DNA of 35,948 nt. Source: Mesorhizobium sp. (GTDB taxonomy: Bacteria; Pseudomonadota; Alphaproteobacteria; Rhizobiales; Rhizobiaceae). The stretch is taken from NCBI RefSeq assembly GCF_017306585.1, contig NZ_JAFKIC010000162.1, forward strand, positions 1-35,948, written 5' to 3'. Position numbers and translations under genes: made by a program. This document shows positions 16,582 to 35,948 of this stretch, piece by piece; position 1 is the stretch's first letter; each line of letters starts with the position of its first letter. The notes beneath the pieces are model-generated. The model was not told the origin of the DNA. It searched no databases and saw nothing but the letters and a program-made list of their open reading frames with translations.

Positions 16582-16782
16582 GTCATCCGGCGGCGGAGCA
16601 AGGAGCGAAGCGACGCGGCGCAGACCCCTGGAGCTGCTCCGCAGCCCAAGGGATCTGTGCCTGGACTCCCGCGCGCTGCCGCAGTGCAGAGTTCTGATCC
16701 GCTGTATTCCACGGCTGAGGTCGCGGCATGGATCCCAGGGTCTTCGCGACGGAGCTTCGCTCCTGCTTCGCCCAGGGATGAC
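16582..16782. repeat. ~200-bp element with long imperfect terminal inverted repeats (MITE-like)
   Basis: The ends are imperfect inverted repeats of about 50 bases. Both begin GTCATCC when read inward, then share blocks such as GGAGCGAAGC and AGACCC. The centre has no ORF with coding features. I recall similar sequences scattered in Mesorhizobium intergenic DNA, which fits a non-autonomous mobile or structural repeat. It occupies most of the gene-free stretch 16434-16879, which holds nothing else recognisable apart from the pit terminator. Confidence 0.55.
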
Positions 16783-33271: not shown

Positions 33272-34300
33272 ATGGCCGGAGCCAGCAAAGCCGTCGCGGA
33301 CAGCCGCGCCAACCTGCCTTTCGTCTACCGCCAGTACAGCGCCGAGCAGCTCAAGGAAGTGCTCTACAAGATGTACCTCATCCGCCGCTTCGAAGAGGGC
33401 GCGGAAGAAAGCTACATGCGCGGCCTTATCCACGGCACCATGCACCTATCCATCGGCCAGGAAGCCAGCGCCATGGGCATCTGCATGCCGCTGACCGAGG
33501 ATGACCAGATCACCTCGACGCATCGCGGCCATGGCCACTGCATCGCCAAGGGCGCCGAGGTCAAGCGCATGTTCGCCGAATTCTTCGGCAAGACCACGGG
33601 CTACTGCAAGGGCCGTGGCGGCTCGATGCACATCGCCGATGTCGGCAAGGGTAATCTGGGCGCTAACGGCATCGTCGGCGGCGGTATTCCGATCGCGGTC
33701 GGCGCGGCGCTCTCCTCCAAGATGATGAAGACCGGCAAGGTCGTGGTCTCCTTCTTCGGCGACGGCGCCAACAATGAGGGCGCCTTCCACGAGGCGCTCA
33801 ACATGGCGGCGGTCTGGAAGCTGCCTGTCATCTTCGTCTGCGAGAACAACGGCTACGGCATGTCGACGTCGACGGCCCGCTCGACCGCGGTGAAGAACAT
33901 CGCCGATCGCGCCAGCGCCTATTCGATGCCCGGCGTCATCGTCAACGGCAACATCTTCTCGGAAGTCGCCGAGGCCTCGCATAAAGCCGTCGAGCGCGCG
34001 CGCGCCGGCGAAGGGCCAACGCTGATCGAGTCCAAGACCTATCGCCATCGCGGCCATTCCAAGAGCGACCGCAACCGCTATCGCACCAAGGAAGAGATCG
34101 AGGACTGGATGTCGAACCGGGATCCGATCACGCTGTTCGAAAACGAGCTGCGGGAATTCGGCTTCATCGATGACAAGGGCATCGAATCCATCCGCGACGC
34201 GGTGGCGAAGGAAATCGCCGACGGCATCGAGTTCGCCAAGGCGAGCCCGTCGCCCGATGTGCGCGATACGGCAAACTATGTCTATACGGAGCAGGCGTGA
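33272..34300 (+). CDS. 2-oxoacid/acetoin dehydrogenase E1 component, alpha subunit
   Basis: A 342-residue thiamine-diphosphate enzyme subunit. The TPP/Mg motif runs from GDGANNEG (163-170) to ENN (191-193), with the conserved [13 protein letters not shown] and GKGRGGSMH-like loop (CKGRGGSMH). It decarboxylates a 2-oxo acid or cleaves acetoin, passing the acyl unit to the E2 lipoyl arm. Sequence style fits the AcoA/PdhA group; acetoin, pyruvate or another 2-oxo acid are all possible. The ATG at 33272 has GGAGG at good spacing; a GTG two codons upstream overlaps the preceding stop. It is followed directly by the beta subunit. Confidence 0.93.
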
Positions 34301-35298
34301 TGGATGCGATGGTGCGTGAACTGAGCTACGCCCAGGCGATCCAGGAAGCCATGGCGATCGCCATGGACATGGACGAGCGTGTCTTCCTGATGGGCGAGGA
34401 TATCGGCGTCTATGGCGGCGCCTTCCAGGTGACCGGCGACCTGGTCGACCGCTACGGCGCCGACAGGGTGCTGGATACGCCGATCTCGGAACTGGGTGGC
34501 GCCGGCGTCGCTGTCGGCGCGGCCGTGACCGGCATGCGTCCGATCTTCGAGTTCCAGTTCTCGGATTTCGCCACGCTGGCCATGGAGCAGATCGTCAACC
34601 AGGCGGCCAAGATGCGCTTCATGCTCGGCGGCGAGGTTTCCGTGCCGGTGGTGATGCGTTTCCCCGCCGGCTCCGGCACCGGTGCGGCGGCACAGCACAG
34701 CCAGAGCCTGGAGGCCTGGCTCGGCCATGTGCCGGGCCTGAAGGTCATCCAGCCGGCGACGCCATACGATGCCAAGGGCATGCTTCTGGCCGCCGTCGCC
34801 GATCCCGACCCGGTGATGATCTTCGAGCACAAGCTGCTCTACAAGGCCAAGGGCCCGGTGCCCGAGGGTTATTACACCGTGCCGATCGGCAAGGCCGACA
34901 TCCGCCGGGAGGGCCGGGATCTCACCATCGTCGCGACCTCGATCATGGTGCAGAAGGCACTGGACGCCGCCGCCACGCTGGAGGCTGAAGGCATCGACGT
35001 CGAAGTCGTCGATCTCAGGACCATCCGGCCGATGGACAAGCAGACCGTCATCGACAGCGTCAAGAAGACGTCGCGGATGATGTGCGTCTACGAAGCGGTC
35101 AAGACCCTGGGCATCGGCGCCGAGGTCAGCGCCATGATCGCCGAGAGCGAGGCATTCGACTATCTCGACGCGCCGATCGTGCGGCTGGGTGGCGCGGAAA
35201 CGCCGATCCCCTACAATCCGGAGCTGGAAAAGGCCACGGTGCCGCAGGTTCCCGACATCATCAGCGCCGCGCGCGACCTCGTGAAAGGGGTTCGCTGA
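34300..35298 (+). CDS. 2-oxoacid/acetoin dehydrogenase E1 component, beta subunit
   Basis: A 332-residue partner of E1 alpha. It begins with the typical [20 protein letters not shown], then [15 protein letters not shown] and [17 protein letters not shown], which contain the TPP-activating Glu. The C-terminal transketolase domain has [20 protein letters not shown]. The ATG at 34300 shares its first base with the alpha-subunit stop (TGATG), and GGAG lies upstream; a GTG one codon earlier is the alternative. The E2 gene begins three bases after its stop. Confidence 0.94.
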
Positions 35299-35301
35299 TC
35301 C

Positions 35302-35948
35302 ATGCCGACCGAAGTGATTCTTCCCAAGGTCGACATGGATATGGCGACCGGACAGATCTCGCGCTGGTTCGCCACCGAGGGGCAGCAGGTCAAGAAGGGC
35401 GACGTGCTGTTCGAGATCGAGACCGACAAGGCGGCGATGGAAATCGACGCTCCCGCCAGCGGCATATTGCGCGATGTGACCGGCAAGGAAGGCGTCGACA
35501 TCGCGGTCGGCGCGCCGGTGGCGTGGATTTATGCCGAGGGCGAGGCTTATGGGGATGGTGCCGCTGCGGCCAAGCAGGACGTGGCTCCAATCTCCCCCCT
35601 TGTGGGGGAGATATCGGCGAAGCCGACAGAGGGGGGCGCTGTCCCTCCTGCCTCTCATTCTGTCGTGCCCCCCTCTGCCCTGCCGGGCATCTCCCCCACA
35701 AGGGGGGAGATCGGCCAATTGCCGTCGGGCGCACGCGCAACACCTTTGGCTCGTCGTCTGGCCCGTGAGGCAGGCCTTGCCCTCGCTAGCATATCAGGCA
35801 CCGGCCCGCATGGCCGTGTGGTCAAGGCCGATGTCGATGCCGCGATCGCTGGTGGTGGCGCGAAGGCCGCTCCGGCCGCCAAGGCGCCAGCTGCCGCGCC
35901 GGCGGCCGCCGCTCCCGCTCCTGCCAAGGCGATGTCGGACGACCAGGT
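35302..35948 (+). CDS. Dihydrolipoamide acyltransferase (E2), N-terminal part (runs off window)
   Basis: The first 215 residues of the E2 core protein of the same complex. Residues 1-80 are a lipoyl domain with ETDKAAMEID (lipoylated K43). Residues about 143-183 are the peripheral-subunit-binding domain (RATPLARRLAREAGL, then GTGPHGRVVKADVDAAI). An Ala/Pro-rich linker follows and the catalytic domain lies outside the window. The first linker is odd: residues about 97-137 are encoded by a palindromic repeat that keeps the frame open (see the repeat at 35590-35711). No separate start problem: the ATG follows the beta-subunit stop at once, with AAGGGG upstream. Confidence 0.92.
   Translation, partial: MPTEVILPKVDMDMATGQISRWFATEGQQVKKGDVLFEIETDKAAMEIDAPASGILRDVTGKEGVDIAVGAPVAWIYAEGEAYGDGAAAAKQDVAPISPLVGEISAKPTEGGAVPPASHSVVPPSALPGISPTRGEIGQLPSGARATPLARRLAREAGLALASISGTGPHGRVVKADVDAAIAGGGAKAAPAAKAPAAAPAAAAPAPAKAMSDDQ
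35590..35711. repeat. Palindromic repeat inserted in frame within the E2 gene
   Basis: The ends are exact 23-base inverted repeats (35590-35612 and 35689-35711), each itself nearly palindromic around a CCTTGTGG-type centre. Inside, GACAGAGGGGGGCG is mirrored by a CCCCCCTCTGCC block, so the whole 122 bases can fold. From memory this is a repeat common between Mesorhizobium genes. Here it encodes about 41 residues (ISPLVGEI ... ISPTRGEI) of the E2 linker without a stop. Confidence 0.8.

Follow-up and report, generated by a model that had tools for sequence, protein, structure and literature searches.

A multi-copy palindrome of Mesorhizobium in frame within the linker of an E2 protein and within linkers or loops of other proteins

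Coding palindromes and the element in the E2 linker

Palindromic repeats that are read in frame within genes were described in Rickettsia as the Rickettsia palindromic elements (RPE) (Ogata, 2000, 2002; PMC2229807, PMC10969869, PMC3767692). The GTAG and CGTC REPs are composed of 20–40 bp units, and movement of the GTAG families by RAYT transposases has been hypothesised; for intragenic copies, linkers and loops were suggested to be tolerant sites, and the UvrD/REP helicase is among the hosts (PMC3733652). The Rhizobium-specific intergenic mosaic element (RIME; Osteras, 1995) comprises repeats of Rhizobium and Sinorhizobium that were named as intergenic (PMC2573895), and coding palindromes for which strong amino acid selection was inferred occur in the mitochondria of Nematomorpha (PMC6649704). 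Within the accessible parts of these papers, in-frame palindromes, linkers as tolerant sites and UvrD as a host are already known.

We analysed a stretch of 35,948 nucleotides of Mesorhizobium DNA (the window), which, like its contig, stops within an E2 gene, so that the catalytic domain lies outside the sequence. The following features were identified:

34297-35298: E1-beta ORF directly before the E2 gene (Pfam Transket_pyr and Transketolase_C)
35302..35946, + strand: E2 (dihydrolipoamide acyltransferase-type) gene, truncated at the contig end (ORF; Pfam domains)
35311..35526, + strand: lipoyl domain, residues 4-75 (Pfam PF00364 Biotin_lipoyl, E 5.3e-16)
35590..35711, + strand: palindromic element, residues 97-137 (inverted repeat, ORF, fold, copies in the own genome)
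35590..35612, + strand: left arm of the outer 23-bp helix (inverted repeat; structure on aligned copies)
35614..35626, + strand: small hairpin coding S-A-K-P-T (helix 2; G-C/A-T pair going with AKP/TKS)
35628..35676, + strand: inner 12-bp helix and variable loop (helix 3; 35628-35639 pairs with 35665-35676)
35677..35688, + strand: small hairpin coding A-L-P-G (helix 4; C-G/G-C pair going with ALPG/GLPA)
35689..35711, + strand: right arm of the outer helix (inverted repeat; structure on aligned copies)
35734..35835, + strand: E3-binding (peripheral subunit-binding) domain, residues 145-178 (Pfam PF02817 E3_binding, E 1.3e-15)

As the initial annotation had proposed, the 122-nt element is bounded by exact 23-base inverted repeats (35590-35612 and 35689-35711 are exact reverse complements) and lies in an open frame between intact domains, the E2 ORF (35302-35946) being uninterrupted, with Pfam Biotin_lipoyl before the element and E3_binding after it. 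With mismatches allowed, the arms reach 26 nt at 96% (35587-35714), the most complementary among the 11 inverted repeats listed for the window (at least 20 nt, arms within 400 nt), and a direct repeat with a spacing of 99 nt lies within the two arms. The single strand folds with -90.4 kcal/mol as RNA (z -8.65) and -48 kcal/mol as DNA (z -7.39), and in both cases none of 200 shuffles was as good. In a weak AF2 model (mean pLDDT 56.5), the insert is located within a stretch of pLDDT below 50 that has no secondary structure; the open frames predict that the insert is translated. The window contains a further palindromic repeat family at 16590-16775, with arms (16601-16632 and 16733-16764) that are 78% complementary and with 73 matches in the own genome.

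The parallel with RPE that had been drawn for a rhizobial-type genome holds for how the element works. Like RPE, as far as these are described in the accessible parts of the literature, it is a multi-copy palindrome of 100–150 nt, present between genes and in frame in unrelated conserved ORFs, with predicted hairpins. We do not file it as RPE, because its host is outside the Rickettsiales; the named relatives that carry it, M. ciceri WSM1271 and M. jarvisii LMG 28313 among them, are Mesorhizobium, free-living rhizobia, it extends across much of a genus, and it is likened to RPE by features, not by sequence. A further difference is that here amino acid changes are shown to track base pairs and that, within a genome, copies from different genes resemble each other. 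It shares with the GTAG/CGTC REPs, in the part of that work available, palindromes inside ORFs, including the UvrD/REP helicase, and double insertions per gene (PMC3733652), and it differs from GTAG REP/REPIN in its 122-nt length, its arms that begin with ATCTCC and the absence of a PF01797 match in the genome. The RAYT/Y1 transposase search with PF01797 gave 0 matches in the own genome and matches in 5 of 14 control genomes, and a RAYT-driven REP was rejected on the absent match. Regarding MITE features, inverted repeats are present, and a transposase partner was sought only as PF01797. A possible likeness to RIME, as described in the accessible parts of the source, would lie in the rhizobial host, the dozens of copies and the occurrence of the element's units also on Rhizobium and Sinorhizobium plasmids. 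As in the mitochondrial palindromes of Nematomorpha, again from the part of the source available, protein coding and strong inverted repeats are combined in one sequence; unlike there, it is the nucleic-acid level that prevails, in a repeat that is dispersed (PMC6649704). No Rfam family was matched above the gathering threshold, the only matches being six sub-threshold miRNA precursors.

Copies in genomes, plasmids and host proteins

The idea that the element belongs to a multi-copy, palindromic family is borne out by 129 blastn matches, which fall into 40 places of the own genome, the E2 copy included (a 7.09 Mb unannotated draft; matches within 300 nt were merged, and each palindromic half matches both strands). 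Most of these places hold half-elements roughly 50 nt long that are arranged as inverted pairs. Compared with the 48 other distinct genome copies, the 49-nt right unit (35667-35715) shows a mean difference of 7.1% (minimum 0, one copy being identical), and these 48 differ among themselves by 8.6%. Most of the element-spanning ORFs of this unannotated draft that were given to Pfam belong to no family: among the ten longest ones, taken from fetched loci only, eight had no family, one was an ABC transporter ATPase and one a permease, so that long ORFs across copies are mostly no evidence of genes. The element stands ahead of the domain in the permease ORF and inside the domain region in the ATPase ORF (L008:766-2277, G000:C8), where it is in frame, with its half-units in opposite order, at a position that we take to be between Walker A and Q-loop.

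Matches were also found in 183 plasmid records of PLSDB, mainly from Rhizobium (74) and Sinorhizobium (69); for the 60 records listed among them, many unannotated and with an incomplete gene table, the best match is outside any listed gene, with the exception of one ftsY. FtsY encoded on a plasmid of Rhizobium sp. NLR16a (L518:956-2533) contains two in-frame half-units in its N-terminal region. The search for E2s on plasmids gave no match at 1e-40. In an order-wide sample, at least 25 of 249 genomes match, an undercount since at most three candidates were scored per genome.

Within the genus, we searched 119 Mesorhizobium genomes and read the linker of 76 orthologues of the window E2 (E2-2), in 62 of which the element is present (58 by pattern and four, L042, L068, L086 and L087, by eye; L and G numbers denote our loci and genomes), the loci being taken from the top of the genus search list, which favours carriers. 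The strain-specific insertion for which the initial annotation had proposed an orthologue alignment is therefore not what we observe, and the insertion is old within the genus; likewise, where a lack of copies in relatives had been considered, many other copies were found. In all 62 carriers the element follows the frame of the E2; some copies have internal deletions, and in L112 an ambiguous base downstream interrupts the frame. The right half is in a different frame in 18 of them (PPDRPAAGHPPLEGEG), several of which contain a second copy in the second linker. The remaining 14 orthologues comprise one frameshifted element, one other insert (at a contig end), one masked linker and 11 with no recognisable copy, two of these (L084, L085) having a linker faintly like a decayed copy. 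L085 (G051), which has no clear first-linker element, contains two element fragments in the second linker. Both E2 genes of one genome (L107 and L116, G031) are frameshifted at the element, which could be homopolymer sequencing error. An assembly artefact is ruled out, as the element is present in several one-contig chromosomes (e.g. G084, G106, G037, G009).

A consensus peptide gave matches at E 1e-7 in 79 of the 119 genomes, and several other host proteins were identified. In PdhC, the main pyruvate dehydrogenase E2, whose loci were drawn from the same carrier-favouring top of the list, the element is in the same frame in 10 of 71 linkers read and frameshifted in one more; four linkers have another insert and 56, including that of the own genome, have the usual Ala/Lys/Pro linker. 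GlyS (glycyl-tRNA synthetase beta subunit) and a fused hydantoinase/oxoprolinase each contain the element at two sites, in the same frame as E2-2. The element is reversed at a third GlyS site (L292, L306, L371) and in UvrD, where 10 genomes were read as carriers; in the 30 other genomes read, the corresponding UvrD loop varies and lacks the element. The identity of the hosts GlyS, hydantoinase A/B and UvrD is confirmed by Pfam. The E2 insert is one copy of a multi-copy Mesorhizobium palindrome, read in frame in the E2 linker and likewise in linkers or loops of other proteins.

The other insert of PdhC, APTSPSDGGGRAAG..., was noticed in four genomes (L199, L200, L225, L254) and, in one genome, also in E1-beta PdhB (L375:1140-2579), in the linker that follows its lipoyl domain. 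One GlyS ORF (L303, G093) starts with the element in another frame near the third site, be it by frameshift, by a new start or by sequence error. At one contig end (L456, G060:C38:1-900), a single element copy has oxoprolinase on its left and GlyS on its right, probably because the assembly was joined wrongly at the repeat, or else through a rearrangement. A second coding family (peptide APTSPSDGGG...) was discarded as a candidate, with only 7 of 119 genomes matching at E 1e-6.

Base pairs and amino acids in the element

We compared 73 aligned copies (72 distinct) out of 83, ten short or gapped ones being excluded (GlyS SPQAT, SPKAT and SPEAT among them), and found the 44-pair structure formed in 95.3% of cells. 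Relative to shuffles, which leave the relatedness among copies in place, cells changed on both sides are in excess (66 versus 19.2; 0/500) and the covariation score is higher (0.076 versus 0.036; 0/500). Sliding the pairing partner abolishes the excess of double changes, which is retained without the seven UvrD rows (48 double-changed cells versus 16.5; 0/500). The number of pairs with a double change (6 versus 5.6; 259/500) and of further pair types (26 versus 25.1; 192/500) showed no excess over shuffles; two of the five covariation measures do not exceed them, and a small number of pairs carry the signal. In the outer and inner helices, four pairs are broken in at least 14 rows (for example 18-117 in 38/72 and 56-82 in 19/71). 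RNAalifold, run without a given structure, returned the same three covarying pairs, a consensus that differs in the inner part and a small covariation term (-1.06).

The three pairs were tallied against the encoded amino acids in the 63 ungapped rows in E2 orientation, without the seven UvrD rows, which are on the opposite strand, where the peptides PEA, VLPD and part of E..S are not made. At pair 34-40, AKP goes with G-C in 42 rows and other A.P combinations with G-C in 8, TKS goes with A-T in 12 (six E2-2 and six PdhC rows), and one TKP row has a broken pair. At pair 95-104, ALPG goes with C-G (42 rows) and GLPA with G-C (18), three rows being different. The long-range pair 20-115, which joins the two arms, is mainly T-A with V..T (43) or A-T with E..S (9, in E2-2, GlyS and oxoprolinase); M..T with T-A (3), A..A with C-G (1) and seven broken pairs (five with V..S) make up the rest. 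A tree inferred from only the E2 flanks requires at least three switches between AP and TS, and two further rows have a one-sided change. The paired amino acid changes AKP/TKS, ALPG/GLPA and V..T/E..S preserve base pairs.

Codon comparisons point in the same direction. In 39 E2-2 sequences (L036, L054, L059, L073 and the E2-2 rows from L074 on are excluded), pS is 0.170 (0.114-0.231) for the insert, compared with 0.300 for the lipoyl and 0.572 for the E3-binding domain, and pN/pS is 0.67, 0.14 and 0.24, respectively; for both measures, the bootstrap interval of the insert overlaps with that of neither domain. Differences at codon positions 1, 2 and 3 amount to 0.136, 0.094 and 0.159 in the insert and to 0.050, 0.040 and 0.215 in the lipoyl domain. 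In 20 GlyS sequences, pS and pN/pS are 0.159 and 0.56 in the insert and 0.329 and 0.21 in the flank. A segment conserved in orthologues with divergent DNA, a result against which the initial annotation had set its own reading, is thus not observed, the insert DNA being less divergent than the flanks, not more. The element is better conserved at the nucleic-acid level than at the protein level, considering that its pS is below that of the flanks, that its pN/pS is 0.56–0.67 and that its amino acid changes keep pairs; a pN/pS below 1 would still be compatible with a degree of constraint on the protein.

These data bear on the possibility that the 41 residues are an ordinary E2 linker under protein-level selection, with a palindrome that is incidental to codon choice. 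Such a linker would account for a peptide retained in 62 of 76 orthologues and for the same frame in several hosts, and it is already disfavoured, to the point that we regard it as very improbable, by a pN/pS of 0.67 with similar differences at the three codon positions, by the same DNA between genes and in unrelated proteins, by amino acid changes that track base pairs and by the 11 of 76 orthologues with no recognisable copy. Pairing could instead be kept because the mRNA hairpin has a selected function, for example slowing of the ribosome between domains or tuning of the operon. The patchy distribution in PdhC (10 of 71 plus the frameshifted copy), GlyS and oxoprolinase, the opposite orientation in UvrD and at GlyS site 3, and an embedded unit as near to other genome copies as those are to one another make such a function unlikely in our judgement, even if the strong fold, the compensatory changes, the between-domain position in E2 and PdhC and the persistence across the genus are what it would lead one to expect.

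Empty sites, exchange between genes and persistence

Empty sites were identified in two of the host genes, from loci at the list tops, a choice that favours uninterrupted sites. At GlyS site 1, 25 of 30 flank-picked loci are empty (DAVITPQSDDLLQ and variants) and five have a short form like PISPTRGEIGQSP; 13 further loci comprise 12 empty sites and one short form. At oxoprolinase site 1, 30 flank-picked loci comprise 23 empty sites (VAGELGAGPRLMFMM), one short remnant and six unmatched by pattern. No target-site duplication was resolved at the empty sites of either gene. The GlyS short form is shorter by 33 codons, exactly the 99 nt by which the copies of the direct repeat in the arms are spaced, and for this reason it looks like a frame-keeping deletion between direct repeats. 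The short remnant AARDGDQSP at an oxoprolinase site (L403, G081) is possibly a footprint left when an element was lost.

For copies in different hosts, the mean difference is 0.168 within the same genome (31 pairs) and 0.209 between genomes (permutation 0/2000), a signal that gene conversion and within-lineage spread would give alike; of the 15 host pairs, 12 show the greater similarity within a genome and three show the opposite. This comparison kept 105 rows, with seven UvrD rows re-entered in element orientation, and dropped 76 unlabelled rows (mostly antisense, second-linker and UvrD sense readings), rows outside 120–150 nt and a repeated host within one genome. We also noticed that the left flank of the PdhC copies (EAKQDK and variants) resembles that of E2-2, which suggests that linkers may have been transferred between the two E2 genes.

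Both observations, together with the right unit that is identical to another genome copy, would be expected if recombination were the main process, host copies being repeatedly overwritten by other copies without in situ selection for the hairpin. Taken alone, this would leave the kept base pairs unexplained, since the donors must be paired too, and we hold it to be possible, if rather unlikely. We consider it likely that the element is a selfish hairpin in tolerant sites, the sequence of which is governed at the nucleic-acid level, with the peptide as a tolerated spacer. Such a hairpin would spread in a non-autonomous, effectively selfish manner, and insertions would persist where the chain accommodates about 45 extra disordered residues. 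Survival may further be filtered by frame, being favoured where the Ser/Pro/Gly-rich frame is read, given that each of the two remaining forward frames, though open in 60 of 73 copies, encodes Arg/Cys/Trp-rich peptides (as read in one copy). After insertion, base-pair maintenance, replacement by copies of the genomic pool and of other host genes, or both, would act on the copy, and the peptide would drift along with the hairpin, as a tolerated spacer and not as a selected protein segment.

At record level, the literature contained no recognised description of in-frame rhizobial elements in E2, GlyS or oxoprolinase, and base-pair-slaved peptides common to unrelated proteins were not met. We tentatively propose, as a possibility that we hold with less than even confidence, that unrelated enzymes share a peptide written by a mobile hairpin, so that, as a single DNA element, segments of a tRNA synthetase, of two dehydrogenase E2s and of an oxoprolinase would undergo concerted evolution; if true, double amino acid changes would be base-pair changes, with copies exchanged between genes. 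For annotators, such peptides are not domains, and for assemblers, such repeats may cause wrong contig joins. Free-living soil bacteria carry insertions of this kind across a large part of a genus, and empty, filled and deletion-derivative sites coexist, which makes two questions directly testable: by what route such elements get into essential genes and stay there, and whether pairing of the nucleic acid, in place of protein function, can shape part of a protein.
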